A DNA stretch of 62,226 nucleotides from Flavihumibacter petaseus NBRC 106054 (lineage in GTDB: Bacteria > Bacteroidota > Bacteroidia > Chitinophagales > Chitinophagaceae), in NCBI RefSeq assembly GCF_000974785.1, contig NZ_BBWV01000008.1, positions 1 to 62,226 of the forward strand. The letters run 5' to 3'. Positions within the stretch are counted from its first letter, which is position 1; each line of letters starts with the position of its first letter. Below, in pieces: positions 20,366 to 27,816 of the stretch. Under the pieces are notes generated by a model, which did not search any database, was not told the DNA's origin, and saw nothing but the letters and a program-made list of their open reading frames with translations. The position numbers and the translations under genes were made by a program.

Positions 20366-21070
20366 ATGAATAAGGTTGTATCCGGCGCCGATGCCGCGTT
20401 GGCAGATATATACGATAACGCCACAATAATGCTGGGCGGTTTTGGCCTTTGCGGAATTCCCGAGACCAGTATCAATGCGCTGGTGCGGAAAGGCGTTACG
20501 GGGCTTACCTGTATATCCAATAATGCAGGAGTGGATAACTTCGGTTTGGGGTTACTGCTGCATACCCGCCAGATCAGGAAAATGATGAGCTCCTATGTGG
20601 GTGAAAATGCTGAGTTTGAACGCCAGCTATTACAAGGGGAACTGGAAGTTGACCTGATTCCGCAAGGTACGTTGGCTACCAGAATTCAGATGGCCGGGAT
20701 GGGCATTCCGGCATTTTTTACGCCCGCAGGGTATGGAACAGAAATCGCGGAGGGCAAGGAAGTTCGCGTTTTCGACGGGAAACACTACCTGATGGAATTA
20801 GCCCTGCACGCTGATTTTGCTATTGTAAAAGCGTGGAAGGGCGACCGTTATGGTAACCTGGTTTTCCGGAAAACAACACGAAACTTTTCCAGTGCGATGG
20901 CCAGGGCAGGAAACGTCACTATTGCAGAGGTAGAAGAAATTGTTGAACCAGGACAGCTTGATCCCGATCAGATCCATGTGCCAGGTATTTATGTGCATAG
21001 GATATTCTCAGGAGGGCCTTACGAAAAACGCATAGAAAAACGAACGACAAGATTATCAAAGGCAGAATAA
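20366..21070 (+). CDS. scoA: 3-oxoacid CoA-transferase subunit A
   Basis: This 234-residue alpha subunit of a succinyl-CoA:3-ketoacid CoA-transferase (type I) carries the glycine-rich CoA-binding loop [10 protein letters not shown] (29-38). It also has the conserved [15 protein letters not shown] and the [16 protein letters not shown] motif. The enzyme activates acetoacetate or a related 3-oxoacid at the expense of succinyl-CoA. The catalytic Glu is in the partner subunit, encoded 761 bp downstream. The two are normally adjacent, but here an unrelated gene separates them. Confidence 0.95.
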
Positions 21071-21082
21071 TTCGATCGTACC

Positions 21083-21829
21083 ATGTTTACCAGCAAGGAA
21101 TATTTAAGTGATGAACTCGGCGTTGATCCCGAGATCGCACGGTTTTTTGTGGACAGAAAAGTGCCGCAGAACAATATGTACTGGAAAGGTCGGCTGCTGT
21201 ATGTGGCGAGGGGCACAGGGTATCTTTTCATACCACTGCTGGTCGATCTGATGTACAAAGCAGGGATCCCGAAAGGCGTGCTGCTGGAGACTGCCTATGT
21301 GCAGCAGATGGAGCAGATACTCGACCTGGCAGCCCGGTACGAGTATAAGGAAAAGACTTTTGAGGAACATATTGCAGAGATTGACGCGCTGGTTTTACCC
21401 GGGGCCAGGCAACAATGGCTGGTAGAAAATCTTCGTGTGTATTTCCGGCAGGAAGTTTTACATCCCGCCGCAGGCCTGGGTATTGATAATCCGCCCCTGA
21501 ACAGGGGAGATGCTTTGTTGTACTGGTTTACCGCACTCGAAGCGCCGAAGGAAACAATAGAGCAACTGATCGCAGCGTGGTATGCACTTGTACCGGCATT
21601 TCTTTTATTGGATGACCTGGTGGACCTCAAGGAAGATCAGGAGAACAATGATGAAAATTCAGTTGCCCGGTATGGCTATAATTCATCAGGCGTCCGGGAA
21701 GCAATAACAGTATTGGAAGGGATGTTTGAAACGCTCGGGAGGTTGAATGCCCCCCTGGCAGTTCATCTCAACGATATTCTCGTCAGCAGTCTCCGAAAGC
21801 CATATTTTCAGCATATACTAAAAAATTAA
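21083..21829 (+). CDS. Unrecognised helical protein with DDxxD motif
   Basis: I do not recognise this 248-residue protein. It appears soluble, with no signal peptide, and is predicted mainly helical. Its most notable segment is [17 protein letters not shown] (about 178-194), preceded by a hydrophobic helix [13 protein letters not shown] DDxxD with a following acidic cluster recalls the metal-diphosphate site of isoprenoid synthase folds. I see no second NSE/DTE-type or DDxxD site, so the resemblance may be chance. It sits between the two subunits of the CoA-transferase, 12 bp after scoA and 2 bp before scoB, so it is surely co-translated with them. A role linked to CoA-transferase metabolism is inference from position only. 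Confidence 0.8.
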
Positions 21830-21831
21830 CG

Positions 21832-22488
21832 ATGGCACTGGATAAGTTTGGTATTGCCCGCCGTATTGCCAGGGAATTGCGGGATGGTATGTATGTGAAT
21901 CTCGGGATCGGAATTCCAACCCTGGTGGCCAACTATATTCCAGACGGCATGCATATTATGCTGCAAAGTGAAAATGGCATGTTGGGAATGGGACCTTATC
22001 CAGACGATGCGGAGATCGACGCAGACCTCATCAATGCCGGAAAGGAGACGGTAACCATCCTTCCCGGAGGTGCCTTTTTTGACAGTGCGGAAAGCTTCGG
22101 AATGATACGGGCAGGAAAGGTCGACCTTACTGTTCTGGGAGCGATGGAGGTCAGTGATGGCGGTGATATAGCCAATTGGAAGATTCCGGGCAAGATGGTA
22201 AAAGGAATGGGAGGGGCAATGGACCTGGTGGCCAGTGCCCGAAATATCATTGTTGCCATGATGCATACCAATCCGAAAGGCGAATCAAAGCTGTTGCCTT
22301 CCTGTACATTACCACTGACAGGCGTCGGCTGTGTGAAGAAAGTCGTAACCGAACTGGCTGTGCTGGATGTTGTTGCCGGGGGATTTTTATTGCTGGAACG
22401 CGCACCTGGGGTGGCGGTTGAAGAGATCCGGCAGAAAACAGCTGGTAGATTGATAGCTGCGGACGATGTGCCGGAAATGCAGTTTTAA
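21832..22488 (+). CDS. scoB: 3-oxoacid CoA-transferase subunit B
   Basis: This 218-residue beta subunit of the 3-oxoacid CoA-transferase contains the active-site motif [12 protein letters not shown] (about 45-56), whose Glu forms the glutamyl-CoA thioester intermediate. LGIGIPTL (23-30) and [13 protein letters not shown] are further family marks. It pairs with the product of scoA. Start and length match the family. The following response regulator gene is convergent, with 7 bp between stop codons and no terminator between them. Confidence 0.96.
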
Positions 22489-22495
22489 GATGCAG

Positions 22496-23146
22496 TTAGT
22501 CGATCATGTTGTTCTTAACAGCGTAGAAGACAAGCCCTGCCGTATTCTTGGCGCCGAATTTCTCCATCAGCCTGTCTTTAATGGCTTCAACTGTCCTGGG
22601 ACTTACTTCCATTTTTTGAGCGATCTCCTGGGCGGTAAACTCCATGCAGATATATTTGATCACATCTCTTTCCCGGTCGGTGAGGGTAACTTCACTGGCC
22701 AGATTGGGGACTGTTTTCTGTTTGGAATGTGATTTTTTGAGCAGGATCCGATTGACAAAATTGTTCAGGTAATAGCCTTTTTCAGCCACTTCCATAATAG
22801 CGCGGCGGATTTCCATCGGATCTGCGCTCTTCAGCAGGTAGCCATTGGCACCGATCTCCATCAGGTGACTCACAAAACGTTCGTCCTCGAACATTGTCAG
22901 CACAACAATATGGATAGTGGGAAACTGTTTGGCGATTTGCTTGGTAGTTTCGATGCCATCTTTGGTAGGCATGCGGAGGTCCATGAGGATAACGTCCGGC
23001 ATTGACTCAGACAGTCCGTCGATAAGTTCCTGCCCGTTTTCAGCTTCCTGAACGAACTTGATATTGGTGAAAGGCCGGAGAGATAGGATAACACCTTTCC
23101 GGAAGATTTTGTGGTCGTCTGCAATAGCTACTTTAATTACAGTCAT
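22496..23146 (-). CDS. NarL/LuxR-type response regulator (set 1)
   Basis: This 216-residue response regulator has an N-terminal receiver domain with acidic pair DD10-11, phospho-acceptor Asp56 (ILMDLRMP) and switch Thr/Lys positions. The C-terminal LuxR-type helix-turn-helix spans about 152-216 (LTDRERDVIKYI, MEVSPRTVEAIKDRLMEKF). Phosphorylation by the kinase encoded 52 bp upstream is the natural expectation. It is the last gene of a minus-strand series that also includes a membrane protein and a small soluble protein. Both regulators in this island end in a similar GL-x2-Y-x3-N-x2-ID tail. Confidence 0.95.
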   Translation of the reverse strand: MTVIKVAIADDHKIFRKGVILSLRPFTNIKFVQEAENGQELIDGLSESMPDVILMDLRMPTKDGIETTKQIAKQFPTIHIVVLTMFEDERFVSHLMEIGANGYLLKSADPMEIRRAIMEVAEKGYYLNNFVNRILLKKSHSKQKTVPNLASEVTLTDRERDVIKYICMEFTAQEIAQKMEVSPRTVEAIKDRLMEKFGAKNTAGLVFYAVKNNMID

Positions 23147-23198
23147 AGGATGCTGCTCTTGGGCTCCTTAAAAATAAGCAATTACCCCGGTTTTTAGC

Positions 23199-24029
23199 TT
23201 AAGCTGTTGGTTCTTCGCGGTGTAATTCGATAGTAACCTTATAATATGTCTGAGACTGGTCTTTTTCAAAGAAAATTCGTCCCTGCAACACTTTCAGGCG
23301 GCTTTGTATGTTCTTAAGTCCTAATCCTGAGGCACTTTTTGTCAGTTTTTCAAAATCTTTCTGTGTCATCCCTTTACCGTCGTGGTGCATGCGGATGTAG
23401 AATTTATTGCCGTTGGTATTTTGGGTCAGGTGAATAAAGCTTGCGTTACTGTGTTTAAGGATATTATTGATTAGTTCCTGTACAACGCGGAAAACGATCA
23501 ACTCATTGTCAATGGGGAGTCTTTCTTTATAATCGTGGAATCTTGAGCTGGCGTTTATGTTACCTGAACCGCTGATTTTCTGAAAAGTATCATTTACAGC
23601 TGATTCCAGACCGAAATTCTTCAGCGTAGGGGGCATCAGGCTATGGGAGATATTCCGGATCAGCTGGATAGTGTCATCAATGATTTGCTTGGCGTTATAG
23701 ATGCTTTGCAGCTGGGTTGTTTTATCGAGGTTAACCAGGTTTTCGTTCAGGTATAACCGGGCGGTAGCGAGGAGCGGTCCGGCATCGTCATGAAGGTCTG
23801 CGGCTATTCTTTGGCGTTCTTCCTCCTGGAGCCGGATAGAGGCATTCAGCAACATTTTTTGCTGTTCATTTTCCATTTTCTGGAGGGTCATCTGGTATCG
23901 GATGACTTTACGTTGGTGGAAAATGATAAAGACAATTAGCCCGATGGTAAGCGCAAGCATGCCAATAGTGCCAAAAAATAGCACTACGGATACGTTGGCA
24001 TGTTGATTATACGCCTGTAAAAGAAGCAT
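23199..24029 (-). CDS. HisKA_3 sensor histidine kinase (set 1)
   Basis: This 276-residue kinase has one N-terminal membrane helix (about 15-37) and a short coiled coil. A HisKA_3 dimerisation domain follows, with phospho-His80 in IAADLHDDAGPLLATARL. The HATPase domain has N-box ELINNILKHSNAS and G-box SGLGLKNIQSRL. It lacks an extracellular sensor domain, so the signal may come from the separately encoded membrane protein upstream. Its usual partner is a NarL-type regulator, here encoded next to it. Confidence 0.94.
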   Translation of the reverse strand: MLLLQAYNQHANVSVVLFFGTIGMLALTIGLIVFIIFHQRKVIRYQMTLQKMENEQQKMLLNASIRLQEEERQRIAADLHDDAGPLLATARLYLNENLVNLDKTTQLQSIYNAKQIIDDTIQLIRNISHSLMPPTLKNFGLESAVNDTFQKISGSGNINASSRFHDYKERLPIDNELIVFRVVQELINNILKHSNASFIHLTQNTNGNKFYIRMHHDGKGMTQKDFEKLTKSASGLGLKNIQSRLKVLQGRIFFEKDQSQTYYKVTIELHREEPTA

Positions 24030-24060
24030 TTAGACTGTTGGGCTAGAAGGGTTAAATATA

Positions 24061-24774
24061 TTATTTAAATTCTTCGAAATCAGATATTGAATAATTTGAT
24101 TCTAAATCATCTTCACTTTCATCATTGCCAGGTACTAAAAACGAAATAGCAAAGAAGATATTTTTGAGTATAATACATATAAGATTAATTGTCCAAAAAT
24201 TGACCTTATCAGATTCAGACAATGACGAAAGTTGAAGGAATAGGAAAAAAGTTCCAGAGAAATAGATCATAATTCCGACTACAATCCAAAAATTCGGCTG
24301 CCGATAAATGAACTTGATCTTCGGTGTCTGGATTTCTTCGTATAAAAGTAATATAGAAAAAACAATTAATATGATTGCGCTTGAGGCAATTGGAATTACG
24401 TCAATTTGTTGGCTGTCAGTGGTAAACCAGACAAAATAAAGATTAGTGCCGGCTATGACGTAGAAAACGAAGGCCGAGATTCGTAATAAAGTAATTAGCC
24501 TTTTACTTACAAGTGACCTACTTATATAATAAGCTAATAAAGTAAATTCTATTATAGTGAATAAAGAGTATAAGGAAATTGGGAGAACAGGATATTTTGC
24601 AAATAGATGGCTGAATGCAGCAAACTGGAAAATCCCCTCATTAATACAAGAATAAACCAATAAAAAAACTATTACCCTTGCCTGGACATTATTGTTCTGT
24701 TTGAATTTGAACAAGAATGTCAACAAAGGTAATAGCAGCGATATTAATGTGATTGTCTTAAAATAGCCCACCAC
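24061..24774 (-). CDS. Polytopic membrane protein of signalling island (set 1)
   Basis: This 237-residue protein has about seven hydrophobic segments and an acidic C-terminal tail (GNDESEDDLESN...). I do not recognise a named family. A segment RQPNFWIVVGIMIYFSGT (about 163-180) has a counterpart in the second membrane protein of the island (TQPHFWIISGLLICYGST), so the two are distant paralogues. The only usable start is a GTG at 24774, inside the right arm of an 18-bp inverted repeat; the first in-frame ATG is far downstream. It lies 31 bp before the set-1 kinase. A role as the membrane input module for a kinase without its own sensor domain is inference. Confidence 0.75.
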   Translation of the reverse strand: MVGYFKTITLISLLLPLLTFLFKFKQNNNVQARVIVFLLVYSCINEGIFQFAAFSHLFAKYPVLPISLYSLFTIIEFTLLAYYISRSLVSKRLITLLRISAFVFYVIAGTNLYFVWFTTDSQQIDVIPIASSAIILIVFSILLLYEEIQTPKIKFIYRQPNFWIVVGIMIYFSGTFFLFLQLSSLSESDKVNFWTINLICIILKNIFFAISFLVPGNDESEDDLESNYSISDFEEFK

Positions 24775-24813
24775 AGGTATTATTGTATCAAATATAATAA
24801 TACCTGTGGTGGG
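24767..24813. repeat. Perfect 18-bp inverted repeat around a promoter
   Basis: Arms at 24767-24784 and 24796-24813 are perfect reverse complements (outer end CCCACCACAGG, inner end TATTATT), separated by 11 nt. On minus, the -7 element TATATTTG (24796-24789) sits in the loop, and the GTG start of the membrane protein lies in the distal arm. It may be an operator, a start-masking hairpin, or a terminator for the upstream small gene (weak T run CTATTTT). Confidence 0.9.
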
Positions 24814-24818
24814 ACAAA
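24789..24818 (-). promoter_or_regulatory. Promoter inside the inverted repeat
   Basis: Reading on minus, TTTG at 24818-24815, then 18 nt, then TATATTTG at 24796-24789 is a near-perfect Bacteroidota promoter. It points to the membrane protein, kinase and regulator genes. The predicted transcript would start within a few bases of the GTG start codon. Confidence 0.6.
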
Positions 24819-24834
24819 ATTTCTTACTAAAAAA

Positions 24835-25221
24835 TTAAAGGCTAGAGTACCAACTAGTTGTAGAAGAAGTACCCTTTGTTCCACCAGGAGGTTGAACTCT
24901 ATCGGCAACAATACCTTGTGCTTTTACGATTTCACCAACTTCAGTCACATTAGAATATTCCAGAAGATCTTTACCTTCTGAGTCAACACCAACATATACT
25001 AATGTCGTTTCGCCGAGTTCATTAATAGCGTTATAAAAGCGAATTCCTGCACAATCTGGCTGCGATAATACCTTGAGAATGATGTCAGATCCAATCAAAT
25101 ACCAAGGCGTGGAATTTGTGTTCTGATCCTGAAAGTCCTTAACCATTTTGGCACCCAGTTCATGGCTGATTTCCTCGCCAATGGCTTTCAGGGAGGGTGA
25201 CAAAATTTCTTGCTGAATCAT
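24835..25221 (-). CDS. Small conserved soluble protein of signalling island
   Basis: This is a 128-residue protein if it starts at the ATG at 25221 (MIQQEIL). An in-frame TTG at 25275 would add 18 residues. It shows the pattern I associate with a widespread Bacteroidota family of small uncharacterised proteins: an N-terminal helix ISHELGAKMVKDFQ, then SDIILKVLSQPDCAGIRFY, then LVYVGVDSEGKDLLEY. There is a single Cys in QPDC. No signal peptide or membrane segment is visible, and no catalytic motif is recognised. It is the first gene of the minus series that continues with the membrane protein, kinase and regulator. The C-terminus is Gly/Ser/Thr-rich. Confidence 0.72.
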   Translation of the reverse strand: MIQQEILSPSLKAIGEEISHELGAKMVKDFQDQNTNSTPWYLIGSDIILKVLSQPDCAGIRFYNAINELGETTLVYVGVDSEGKDLLEYSNVTEVGEIVKAQGIVADRVQPPGGTKGTSSTTSWYSSL

Positions 25222-25544
25222 AAACGGAAGTTTTTGGGAATATTTTGGGGTGATTTCTATTGTAATAACCTTCAAAAAAAAACTAAGGGCAATGGGGTAG
25301 ATCTTAACTTATTTTTATAAATTGGCTATAATTCAGTCCCATAGCGGATTTACGATTAAAACTATCGTATAGTTGCGATAAAAAATAACGTAAAAATACT
25401 CGATGAAAATAGTAAAAATCCCATTCTAATGTTCGGTAGTTTCCGATTTTATTTTATTGAAGCAAGGGGATTTGGGTATATTTTAGTTAAAATATTAAAA
25501 GAAAGAGCAATGAATACTTAAAAGAACTTACTTGTGAGGGTTAG

Positions 25545-25552
25545 TATTTTTG
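25545..25552 (+). promoter_or_regulatory. -7-like box upstream of response regulator 2
   Basis: TATTTTTG matches TAnnTTTG, about 130 bp before the start codon. No TTTG is found at the -33 spacing. Confidence 0.35.
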
Positions 25553-25557
25553 CCAAG

Positions 25558-25580
25558 TATAATATGAAGGACATATTATA
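25558..25580. repeat. Perfect 9-bp inverted repeat upstream of regulator 2
   Basis: TATAATATG and CATATTATA are separated by 5 nt (AAGGA). The repeat begins 5 bp after the -7-like box, where the transcript start would fall. It has the size and placement of an operator for a dimeric regulator. Confidence 0.75.
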
Positions 25581-25681
25581 AAAATCGTAATTCTAAAGAA
25601 TAAAATCGAGGGAAAATACCATAATCGTACTCTGGGCGTTAATTATATCCCAACATAAATCCTTTAAAAACTGCCAAACCT

Positions 25682-26341
25682 ATGAGTGCTGAGTTAAGTA
25701 TTAAGGTTAGTCTAGCGGATGACCACAAGATTTTTCGCGACGGTATTAAAATGGCCTTGAAGGGAAAGGACTATTTAAAAATCCTTTGGGAAGCGGAGGA
25801 TGGAAGGGACCTAATGCACAAAATGCAATTGAAGAAGCCTGATGTGCTTCTTATGGACATACGAATGCCAGAAGTGGATGGTGTCAACGCGATAGGACTA
25901 CTGAGAAAGGAATATGATGACGTCCGGATCATTGTGCTCACCATGTACGACGACCAGGAGATGATCACTAAGATGATGGAAATGGGAGCCAATGCTTATC
26001 TGACCAAGACAAGTGATCCAGAAGAGATTTATCAGGCTATCCTGGCATGCATGAATGATGACTTTTACTTTAACGACCTTGTCAATAAAGCTGTGCTTTC
26101 CAAACTTCAGACCAAGAAAGCAGTCCGCCAATTTTATCCCAATCCAGTCAAATTTTCAGAAAAAGAAACAAAGATCTTAAAACTATTGGCTGAAGATAAA
26201 ACGACCGAAGAGATTTCTAAGGAGGTATTTCTCAGTCCGAGAACAATTGAAACGATACGGCAAAATATGAAATCAAAAGTAGGTGCAAAGACAATTGCTG
26301 GATTGATTATGTATGGAATGCGTAATAAAATTATCGATTGA
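25682..26341 (+). CDS. NarL/LuxR-type response regulator (set 2)
   Basis: This 219-residue response regulator has acidic pair DD13-14 and phospho-acceptor Asp59 (LLMDIRMP). The LuxR-type helix-turn-helix spans about 158-219 (FSEKETKILKLLAEDKT, FLSPRTIETIRQNMKSKVG). It resembles the set-1 regulator in every block and ends with the same NKIID/NNMID type tail, so the two are paralogues. It is convergent with the set-2 kinase, the two coding sequences overlapping by 11 bp at their 3' ends, which is unusual for a cognate pair. It may be controlled through the palindrome upstream. Confidence 0.95.
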   Translation: MSAELSIKVSLADDHKIFRDGIKMALKGKDYLKILWEAEDGRDLMHKMQLKKPDVLLMDIRMPEVDGVNAIGLLRKEYDDVRIIVLTMYDDQEMITKMMEMGANAYLTKTSDPEEIYQAILACMNDDFYFNDLVNKAVLSKLQTKKAVRQFYPNPVKFSEKETKILKLLAEDKTTEEISKEVFLSPRTIETIRQNMKSKVGAKTIAGLIMYGMRNKIID

Positions 26342-27125
26342 GAGGTATTTTAATTGTTATACTAGTCCCTTTTTCAATTATTGACTTTACTGTAAAATTT
26401 CCGCCAACGGCCAAAACTCTACTCTTCATATTTAATAGCCCCTGCGAGATTCTCTTATTTTTATAGACTTTTGTAGTATCAAAGCCATTTCCGTTATCAA
26501 CAATCTCGAATAATAGTTCTGCATCAACAATCAAAGTAATATTGATTTCAGTTGAATTTCCATGTCGCAGAGCATTTCGCACTGCTTCTTGAAATATTCT
26601 AAAAATAGTAAGCTGTATATTACTGGATAGAAATTCAAATTTTTCGTCTAGGGAAATACGAATTGCTGTTGCGTGACTTTTTGTAATTCTTTGTACTTCT
26701 TCGTTGATCATTTTATCTAATCCATATTCCTTCACTAAGTCCGGATTGAGACTTCTTGAAATATTATTCAATGAATTGAAGGCCATATCAAGGTAGTCAA
26801 TCATATTTTTAAGTATAAGCATGTTTTCCTTGGTTGGTAATATTTCCAAGGTGGGAATATTTAATTTACATAACATCAATAGTTGATTGACGTTATCATG
26901 TATTTCTTGCCCGATTGACGAAAACGTATCTTCCTGAATAAGGATTTTTGATTCTAGTATTTCTTTTTCTGCAGACAATTGCAATAGGGAAATACTTTCT
27001 TTGTGTTCCACTTGTTTCTTCTTAAAAAGCATTACCATTTTGTATATAAAACCAATTTGCAGAAGAAAAAATAGAATACTAACAAATATTGACGTAGCTA
27101 GGATTGTAGCTGCAACTTGTGACAT
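26331..27125 (-). CDS. HisKA_3 sensor histidine kinase (set 2)
   Basis: This 264-residue kinase has one N-terminal membrane helix (about 9-33), then a coiled linker. The HisKA_3 segment has phospho-His76 in SSIGQEIHDNVNQLL. The HATPase domain has N-box EAVRNALRHGNS and a DNGNGFD G1 box. The G2 box reads RISQGLLNMKSR, without the first Gly of the usual GxGLxNM motif. Like the set-1 kinase it has no extracellular sensor domain. Its start lies inside the 3' end of the membrane protein gene (28-bp overlap), so the two are translationally coupled. Confidence 0.93.
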   Translation of the reverse strand: MSQVAATILATSIFVSILFFLLQIGFIYKMVMLFKKKQVEHKESISLLQLSAEKEILESKILIQEDTFSSIGQEIHDNVNQLLMLCKLNIPTLEILPTKENMLILKNMIDYLDMAFNSLNNISRSLNPDLVKEYGLDKMINEEVQRITKSHATAIRISLDEKFEFLSSNIQLTIFRIFQEAVRNALRHGNSTEINITLIVDAELLFEIVDNGNGFDTTKVYKNKRISQGLLNMKSRVLAVGGNFTVKSIIEKGTSITIKIPLNR

Positions 27126-27763
27126 ACAAAGGATTTAATAAAGAAAAAATGCATTATTATATTTCCTATAAGAAATGGATACGACAAAGTATTTGGATCA
27201 ACTATTTGAAAAATGCCGTTTGAAAAGATGGAAACATAAAATGATGCAGTTGTCATTGGGAGTGTAGATCCATAGCAAATCAAAAGTCCTGATATAATCC
27301 AGAAATGAGGTTGCGTATGTAGATTTGCAACATCTTCCGTTCTAAATATCCAATTAATATATTTATAACATTGCACTGTTATAATTAAGTTGGAGAATGC
27401 TTGAATAATTGTAGTAACTGACTCAAATAAGTGATACGATAATATGGGTGCGATCACGCACGCCAGGACATTGAAAGTCCAATTAATTTTGGTCTTGGTG
27501 AAAGAAGTGATATACAGTTGCAATAATACTATTTCGCTAACCACGAAACTTATGCCAGCAGAAGCGAAAATAATGTATGATTTTATTAAACCGGCATAAT
27601 ATAAATCAGCGACGATACTCGTTAGTAGGTCAATTATACAAAACGGAACAATATAACGAAACTCTTGTTGGTAGTACCTTCTAAATTTGGCTAACGAAAG
27701 TAAATAAGCCACGTTAATTGTTACAACCGCCAGTTGTAAAATAATCAAGACTTCGAACAGCAT
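27098..27763 (-). CDS. Polytopic membrane protein of signalling island (set 2)
   Basis: This 221-residue protein starts at the ATG at 27763 (MLFEVLIILQ). The longer reading from a TTG at 27781 is less likely. It has about seven hydrophobic segments, and near residues 153-170 a segment TQPHFWIISGLLICYGST corresponds to RQPNFWIVVGIMIYFSGT of the set-1 protein. I recognise no named family. It overlaps the kinase gene by 28 bp. Coupling of a membrane protein with a kinase that lacks a sensor domain, seen twice here, suggests that the two work as one receptor; this is inference. Confidence 0.75.
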   Translation of the reverse strand: MLFEVLIILQLAVVTINVAYLLSLAKFRRYYQQEFRYIVPFCIIDLLTSIVADLYYAGLIKSYIIFASAGISFVVSEIVLLQLYITSFTKTKINWTFNVLACVIAPILSYHLFESVTTIIQAFSNLIITVQCYKYINWIFRTEDVANLHTQPHFWIISGLLICYGSTLPMTTASFYVSIFSNGIFQIVDPNTLSYPFLIGNIIMHFFFIKSFVCHKLQLQS

Positions 27764-27816
27764 TGTGAGCTTTTCGACCAAACTACAAATTCGCTAACTA
27801 TCCTCATACCGTGTTT

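Follow-up and report, generated by a model that had tools for sequence, protein, structure and literature searches.

The window analysed here is the whole 62,226-nt stretch of contig NZ_BBWV01000008.1 of Flavihumibacter petaseus NBRC 106054, a member of the Bacteroidota. Seven of its open reading frames (ORFs) are labelled S, M1, K1, R1, R2, K2, and M2. S, M1, K1, and R1 form a single operon, which encodes a small protein, a seven-helix membrane protein, a histidine kinase, and a response regulator, and R2 is divergent from S. The S-M-K-R set is probably a ligand-receptor signalling cassette, in which the tail of S, or a short peptide in its place, serves as the ligand, M as the receptor, and K and R as the output. 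The gene order, the protein families, the topology of M, the occupation of one syntenic site by a peptide instead of S, and the co-diversification of S or peptide with M were computed here. The gene layout, with a fast-changing M beside a nearly constant kinase and regulators, looks like that of bacterial pheromone systems, and the signal is a candidate by this likeness.

Occurrence and gene order of the cassette

The neighbourhoods of matches were fetched, and S, M, K, and R were labelled by profiles built in this analysis. Genes were called with a simple ORF picker, and some M and S starts are wrong for this reason. The loci were found by similarity to S or M and are not independent. Doubly fetched genomes were removed by sequence in the S, M, and close-pair counts, and repeats remain in a set of 83 S loci. 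With S as a single query sequence, relatives are found in 39 of 147 family genomes, and a search with the S alignment A1 finds them in 42 of 395 genomes of the phylum. M is more widespread: it occurs in 49 of 98 genomes of the family and in 87 of 395 of the phylum. The named records matched (58 loci) include Flavihumibacter, Niastella, Pseudoflavitalea, Longitalea, Puia, Hymenobacter, and Mucilaginibacter. S-profile matches also occur in metagenome-assembled genomes (MAGs) of Gemmatimonadetes and Calditrichaceae (L268, L273, L274, and L278), and the family seems to reach beyond Bacteroidota.

The 135 distinct S include 7 too close to a contig end, which leaves 128 usable. S-M-K-R, in this order on one strand, is found for 106 of these; the other 22 include the tandem forms S-M-S-M-K-R and S-M-M-K-R, and S-M or S-M-K only. 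The small protein is thus tightly tied to two-component genes. It belongs to an uncharacterised family, as the preliminary description of this DNA had held, and the sequence pattern that this description gave for the protein (of the QPDC...GIRFY...VGVDSEGKD type) is present in S. Among 172 distinct M, 3 of which stand at a contig edge, K follows M in 130 of the 169 usable cases and nothing labelled stands behind 28, so that homologues of M do not lie mostly away from kinases. Neither of the two outcomes that the preliminary description named as refuting, membrane-protein homologues mostly apart from histidine kinases or a small protein with no more than chance linkage to two-component genes, was thus obtained. 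M without K stands directly behind an R in 24 cases, as a third M after R1 in many cassettes. Such a third M-family gene behind R1, with no kinase of its own, is seen in L077, L223, L233, L253, and others.

The partnership of M and K extends to loci picked for having no S nearby in the A1 phylum search. K lies downstream of M in 18 of 20 such loci, and an S-profile match lies upstream in 8. In eight of the other 12, the gene immediately before M encodes 98-245 residues, and several of these genes are lipoprotein-like or have a CPP-type end; three have no upstream gene, and one has an unrelated 436-residue gene. When these upstream genes and L205 are scored with the S profile, the eight best of 142 ORFs all stand directly upstream of M (four at E<0.01), and a ninth candidate (L203) is no better than chance. 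In a second batch of 16 hand-picked M loci, K is present in 16 and S in 5.

The kinases beside M have little of their own with which to sense. One helix is predicted in 99 of 111 distinct K, none in 8, and two in 4, and the median K is 267 residues long. In 106 of 154 cases, M and K overlap or lie no more than 30 bases apart. The preliminary description suggested that a separately encoded membrane receptor drives each kinase. M is indeed the regular partner of a sensorless kinase, and by this arrangement it may drive it. That interpretation is partly supported, being right in outline, and the finding is larger in three respects: S is a candidate ligand, a ~20-residue peptide can replace S, and the S tail and M are hypervariable.

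A short peptide in place of S

At the chromosomal site of the window, beside coenzyme A (CoA)-transferase genes, relatives carry either S or a peptide of 19-25 residues. Four of seven S-less M loci have an ORF of 21-23 residues before M, with near-identical bases before each ATG. A peptide led by this start box is also found in 9 of 13 S-less M loci from the family and phylum searches with M (two of the nine are shared with the set of seven, and L187 repeats L044). The start-box pattern AAANGTTACTGTTATG, searched in 344 family genomes, occurs at 28 places in 26 genomes, against 5 for a reversed-pattern control. These places comprise 17 peptides of 19-23 residues between a divergent R2 and M-K, 8 unrelated places, and 3 second short basic peptides before another regulator gene. 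The latter class, found in L364, L374, and L377, has 16-17 residues and ends in KRV, DRVQ, or DRV; it adjoins R2 in L364 and L374.

Adding G004 and G084 brings the set to 18 distinct peptides of 19-25 residues from 19 genomes. Trp occurs within the last six residues of 17 of them, with the ends Trp-Glu-Asp in 9 and Trp-Val-Asp in 2, and first-order Markov controls reach this length and Trp content at a rate of 0.0085. The last residue is acidic in 15 of the 18, and Cys is present in two, at residue 8 in both. As in the window, R1 is followed by CoA-transferase genes in 14 of the 18 peptide cassettes, and the same holds for 54 of the 83 S loci (repeats included).

The start box of S, AAAAACTTACT, is a variant form of that of the peptides. 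In the family, it precedes 32 of 57 S, none of the 93 M or 103 R, and 1 of 71 K. The start context of S in the window, AAAAACTTCCGTTT, does not match the box pattern and is taken as a diverged form of it. From the shared syntenic site and the like start box, S and the short peptide are concluded to be alternative occupants of one locus.

The small protein S and its tail

No Pfam or NCBIfam family matches S, M1, or M2 above cut-off, and 31 relatives of S scanned against the family libraries give scattered weak matches only. A profile search of S against PDB sequences returns no match of weight (one chance match at E=0.96). The predicted structure of S consists of a confident alpha+beta domain, with block means of the predicted local distance difference test (pLDDT) of 91-96 over residues 11-110 and 51-56 beyond. 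Compared with PDB structures, this fold has no significant match (best E=0.47).

The ends of the S proteins are of two main kinds. A CxxxC tail, commonly CPPxC, ends 60 of the 135 distinct S. The remaining 75, which include the group of the window, have Trp within the last 15 residues in 52 cases, and Trp makes up 96 of 1125 residues in this stretch vs 35 of 8650 elsewhere. Some of the S without such a Trp retain a CPP or SPP end that lacks the second Cys. In the S of orthologous cassettes, Trp lies within the last 10 residues in 41 of 43. An N-terminal hydrophobic leader is present in 10 of the 135 S, about six of them with a lipobox by eye, which indicates that the S domain can work outside the cytoplasm. 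Locus L091 (7197-8030) encodes a 277-residue protein of two tandem S domains, each with a CP-YC tail, with no labelled M or K directly downstream.

The seven-helix protein M

The AlphaFold model of M1 has seven helices with a mean pLDDT of 92. The Lys+Arg counts place the N-terminus outside and the C-terminus inside in 68 of 68 relatives (mean 9.97 vs 3.13). The best conserved residues include a Glu in helix 3 and P, F, W, G, and Y in helix 6 and at its start; this helix enters the membrane from the cytoplasmic side. The segment that the preliminary description found common to both membrane proteins is present as QPxFWIxxGxxI in M1 and M2, and it closes with GT in M1 and with ST in M2. The outer helix halves are more variable than the inner ones (0.289 vs 0.383; Mann-Whitney p=0.001, kinship-uncorrected).

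Against Pfam, the 68 relatives give scattered weak matches, and no family is matched by more than 2 of the 68. A kinship with 7TMR-DISM (PF07695) was rejected: 2 of the 68 match at E<=0.1 (best 0.00045), and the alignment is colinear, but the profile-profile probability is 4.6%. A microbial rhodopsin was also rejected, as Lys is not the main residue in the conserved helix-7 columns family-wide; Lys in helix 7 is frequent among the M of the window's group and not conserved across the family. The 50 matches listed by Foldseek are mostly G-protein-coupled receptors (GPCRs), with a few zinc transporters and microbial rhodopsins; none is significant (best E=0.085), and the template modelling (TM) scores are mostly 0.4-0.5. 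In G060, a 619-residue frame that seemed to match M is an ABC-transporter-like protein by sequence and not a receptor-kinase fusion.

Co-diversification of S or peptide with M

Close relatives were compared in 57 distinct CoA-transferase-linked cassettes (43 with S), as pairs with a coaB identity of at least 0.85 (n=240). The mean identity is 0.88 for coaB, 0.93 for R1, 0.90 for K, and 0.93 for R2, and only 0.42 for M and 0.61 for S. M identity is two-humped among 108 pairs with K identity of at least 0.90 and a split tail. Fixed 18-residue tails were compared in 119 pairs with K identity of at least 0.90. In the 29 pairs with M identity of at least 0.65, the tail score is 0.50 and the core score 0.82; in the 76 pairs with M below 0.5, these are 0.07 and 0.53, and 14 pairs are intermediate. 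In Mantel tests, which permute labels only and whose p-values are uncorrected for kinship, the partial correlation of tail and M given K and core is r=0.34 (p=0.0005), and that of tail and K given M and core is r=0.12 (p=0.054).

DNA identity profiles in 100-base intervals were drawn for seven pairs. Where close relatives differ in M type, identity falls across the 3' half of S (or the peptide) and M and is regained at K. For L226 and L229, identity is 0.86-0.98 in R2, 0.65-0.95 in the spacer, and 0.98 at the S start, is 0.51-0.83 over the 3' end of S and most of M, and returns to 0.98 at the M end. The profiles of L063/L226 and L073/L248 are much alike, and the latter recovers only within K. 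L073 and L239 have the same M type and show no such drop. The peptide pairs L359/L360 and L360/L361 have identities of 0.82 and 0.89 upstream of the peptide. Within the peptide, identity is 0.89 and 1.0 up to codon 3 and 0.43 and 0.65 beyond; it is 0.56 in M, and 0.93 and 0.97 in K.

L073 and Niastella caeni (L248) have identical R1 and R2 (1.00), and their M are 0.31 identical. The M of N. caeni has an identity of 0.64 with the M of a Pseudobacter MAG (L237), with R1 at 0.94. Since L073 and L248 share both regulators and not M, and the N. caeni M is nearer to that of L237, the sequences suggest that the module is exchanged between lineages. Nine loci of genus g108 serve as a control: the neighbouring proteins of 6 and 9 helices have identities of 0.88 and 0.87 (n=8 each), and M has 0.53, S 0.49, K 0.76, and R 0.79. 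A general fast pace of membrane proteins thus fails to explain the variability of M. In eight loci (L152, L158, L159, L161, L162, L165, L168, and L169), a cassette with fast S and M stands at a fixed place between 514- and 419-residue genes.

As read from these identities, the pattern is the signature of a co-diversifying signal and receptor. The replacement of a protein by a peptide with a like C-terminus, and the turnover of this end together with M while kinase and regulators stay constant, are as signal-receptor specificity predicts.

Proposed mechanism

The first gene of the cassette would encode the ligand, which in the window is predicted to be a folded domain of ~100 residues with a flexible C-terminal tail ending in an aromatic motif, and in sister genomes a free peptide of 19-25 residues. 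The more variable outer half of M would recognise it. The better conserved cytoplasmic half, with the P-x-F-W segment at the helix 6 start, would couple to the single-helix kinase K, which would phosphorylate R1 and perhaps R2. The ligand would bind M, act between cells, and drive K through M. Ligand and receptor would diversify jointly while the kinase and the regulators stay fixed, giving pherotype-like specificity types.

Points for and against the ligand-receptor reading

Several results weigh against the ligand-receptor reading. The largest gap is a ligand without a leader: a recognisable export signal is absent from 125 of the 135 S and, by eye, from the short peptides, and no transporter or protease gene belonging to the cassette is seen among the neighbours listed. 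The S core tracks M as the tail does, with a partial Mantel r=0.40 (p=0.0005) for core and M after control for K and tail. Across 106 cassettes drawn from the whole set, S has a partial correlation of 0.11 with M vs 0.37 with K, and direct S-M co-evolution at this wide scale is unsupported. In the window itself, compared with the congener L063, the identity drop is less sharp, because R2 (0.65-0.81) and the spacer (~0.5) have diverged too. Three of the seven S-less M loci have no such peptide, and that of L375 lacks a Trp near its end (1 of 18). Nothing recognisable stands beside 5 of the 128 S, and some S, such as that of L170, are beside M without K. The fold search gives no significant structural match for S or M, and helix 5 of M reverses the trend of outer and inner halves (0.41 outer, 0.35 inner).

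Some of these points would suit an S that is an accessory subunit, one that tunes the kinase by binding to M or K, possibly together with a redox or small-molecule signal, with the S and M diversity reflecting the contact of these two. The CxxxC tail of 60 of 135 S, the confident globular domain, the absence of a leader from most S, the tracking of M by both core and tail, and the closer tracking of K over the 106 cassettes all point this way. Such a subunit is nevertheless rather unlikely, as the replacement of a ~100-residue domain by a 20-residue peptide at the same site fits a ligand better, and a fixed environmental cue fails to explain the allele-like M types. For the peptide loci, a leader peptide (attenuator) that controls M translation and is not a signal would account for a short ORF with a fixed start context before M, for Trp codons near its end, and for the second short basic ORF with the same box before another regulator gene. 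This is improbable, since orthologous loci hold a protein of ~120 residues there, with a like start context and a Trp-rich end, and the peptide sequence changes where the M allele changes.

Hypervariable paired genes between constant flanks, and Trp-rich short peptides, are also what a toxin-immunity pair of the bacteriocin type would present, with S or the peptide and M under diversifying selection and K-R as their regulators. That K follows M in 130 of 169 cases and in 18 of the 20 loci fetched without S, that K has no other sensor, that 15 of 18 peptides end acidic, and that no transport or modification genes are seen in the cassette make this distinctly improbable. The allele-like replacement of M between close relatives could also mean that M is a target of phages or predators and that S is bound up in this, signalling specificity not being the cause. 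Neither the co-variation of tail and M after control for K and core nor the peptide replacement is predicted by such a target, which makes it the least credible of the alternatives and highly improbable.

Known systems and significance

In the agr quorum sensing system of staphylococci, the genes are AgrB-AgrD-AgrC-AgrA. As in the cassette, there are four genes, for a small precursor, a membrane protein, a kinase, and a regulator, and the signal and receptor parts are hypervariable while the kinase and regulator are constant. The cassette differs in that the proposed receptor is a separate seven-helix protein and not the kinase's own sensor, the regulator is NarL-type, and the hosts are Bacteroidota. 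M lacks a well conserved Cys or His such as the AgrB peptidase has, both being only minor residues in its 25 best conserved columns (led by P, E, F, W, G, and Y). A polytopic kinase sensor is not found (99 of 111 K have a single predicted helix and 4 have two), and no Cys for a thiolactone is conserved in the peptides, 2 of the 18 having one. Sensory rhodopsin-transducer pairs have, as proposed for the cassette, a separate seven-helix receptor coupled sideways to a signalling partner of few helices; no sequence relation of these to M is found, and the helix-7 Lys is not family-wide. In LiaF-LiaS and other two-component systems with accessory proteins, a near-sensorless kinase is driven by a separate membrane protein, as proposed here. 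M differs from these as a seven-helix protein of no known family that comes with a polymorphic partner gene.

The ComQXPA system of Bacillus (PMC4008528) has a precursor peptide with a functional Trp and polymorphic signal-receptor pairs, and its kinase and regulator genes share the locus. Some cassettes here have a weakly prenyl-synthetase-like gene nearby. ComP has its own multi-helix sensor, whose proposed counterpart here is a separate gene. The gene in question encodes a 248-residue DDxxD protein between the CoA-transferase genes, and its motif is kept in 7 of 7 relatives inspected. It falls below every family cut-off, with Pfam matches to DUF2600 (E=0.019, window copy) and polyprenyl_synt (E=0.087, a relative), NCBIfam matches among five members that are all sub-threshold, and no match of the window's copy in the PDB, so that homology to ComQ is not established. 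It is present in 11 of the 57 cassettes, none of them of the peptide type. Trp lies in the last two residues of S in 9 of 11 cassettes with this gene vs 5 of 32 without (p=0.00015, kinship-uncorrected), and the association is weaker for the last four residues (9 of 11 vs 15 of 32; p=0.08). L081 and L089 also carry the gene with an S not so ended; they are outside the 57, as no CoA-transferase gene was found in the locus. By analogy with ComQ-ComX, the DDxxD protein is possibly a ComQ-like modifier, prenylating the terminal Trp in the window's clade.

The streptococcal peptide XIP is GLDWWSL or WGTWVEE, and type II is marked by a double-Trp motif (PMC5131902). ComRS/XIP and Rgg-SHP of streptococci have short precursors with an active C-terminal end, and S tails with LDWWS and peptides ending in WED are alike here. 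They differ in that the signal is read inside the cell by a cytosolic regulator, in place of a membrane receptor and kinase; the regulators here are NarL-type, and no cytosolic Rgg-type regulator is seen. The resemblance is at most convergence. The literature titles and abstract beginnings retrieved name no peptide-pheromone two-component system in Bacteroidota and tie nothing to S or M.

A wider reading, put forward tentatively, is that Bacteroidota may have a peptide-pheromone language of their own. It would comprise polymorphic ligands, in the form of a folded carrier whose C-terminal tail is active, a tail tethered by a lipoprotein, or a free ~20-residue peptide, and stand-alone, GPCR-shaped seven-helix receptors driving sensorless kinases. 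The pherotypes would be exchanged as a ligand-receptor block, and the terminal Trp would perhaps be prenylated in the window's clade. If the ligand-receptor reading is true, a large phylum gains a cell-cell signalling system whose types are readable from sequence, and functions can be assigned to two unnamed protein families and to an overlooked class of ~20-residue peptide genes. It would also provide a bacterial seven-helix peptide receptor with a known partner kinase. Synthetic peptides make the reading directly testable.

Features of the window

All seven ORFs of the two-set island of the preliminary description are present with their positions and strands, including the overlap of M2 and K2 (Table 1). 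K1, R1, and R2 have two-component domains above the Pfam cut-offs, and K2 has one of its two.

Table 1. Position, strand, and basis of assignment of the features discussed (positions in the window)
Feature	Position	Strand	Basis
R1, NarL-type response regulator	22496..23146	-	Pfam Response_reg + GerE
K1, one-helix histidine kinase without sensor domain	23199..24029	-	Pfam HisKA_3 + HATPase_c above cut-off
M1, seven-helix membrane protein, N-out/C-in, proposed receptor, GTG start	24061..24774	-	Structure prediction, charge topology
S, small protein of 128 aa, predicted globular domain (~11-108) and low-confidence C-terminal tail	24835..25221	-	ATG start; in-frame TTG at 25275
S tail, last 20 residues, Gly/Thr/Ser-rich, end SWYSSL, proposed ligand segment	24838..24897	-	Trp near end in orthologues, tail tracks M type
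S start context, AAAAACTTCCGTTT before ATG	25222..25241	-	Box comparison across family
R2, NarL-type response regulator, divergent from S, place kept in relatives	25682..26341	+	Pfam Response_reg + GerE, synteny
K2, one-helix histidine kinase of set 2	26331..27125	-	HATPase_c above cut-off; HisKA_3 E=0.044, below cut-off
M2, second M-family membrane protein, 28-bp overlap with K2	27098..27781	-	ORF + M search
CoA-transferase subunit, syntenic marker fixing the locus in relatives (with 20366-21070)	21832..22488	+	Gene neighbourhood
DDxxD protein of 248 aa between CoA-transferase genes, possible modifying enzyme (speculative)	21083..21829	+	Weak polyprenyl-synthetase / DUF2600 resemblance

The assignment of R2 as the regulator of set 2 is less well supported. 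An R2-type gene on the opposite strand is present in 56 of the 57 distinct CoA-transferase-linked cassettes, and by synteny R2 appears to go with the S cassette and not clearly with set 2. In 14 of 43 loci (L223-L265), an additional K-R or M-K-R set that includes a regulator of its own is convergent to R2. The closest relatives (L063, L224, L226, L227, and L229) have only M2-K2 there, as in the window. R2 may have taken over K2, or it may serve K1. Only 35 bp separate M2 from the next gene, which leaves no room for a ligand gene directly upstream.

The AT-rich block noted earlier at ~24-28 kb is confirmed, with a guanine-plus-cytosine (GC) content of 0.32-0.37 per 1-kb interval vs mostly 0.44-0.53 elsewhere in the window. 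In the 57 cassettes of relatives, the mean GC is 0.336 for M vs 0.42-0.48 for K, R1, R2, and coaB. The low GC of M is thus a property of the system and not of this genome alone. A recent horizontal gain is disfavoured as the source of the AT-richness, since relatives keep the site in synteny and their M, too, is on average AT-rich.

The F. petaseus genome contains two further S-M-K-R sets, L093 (contig C19) and L312 (C21), and an S-M pair without K, L170 (C22). The S of L312 is lipoprotein-like and ends in CPPNCGKG.

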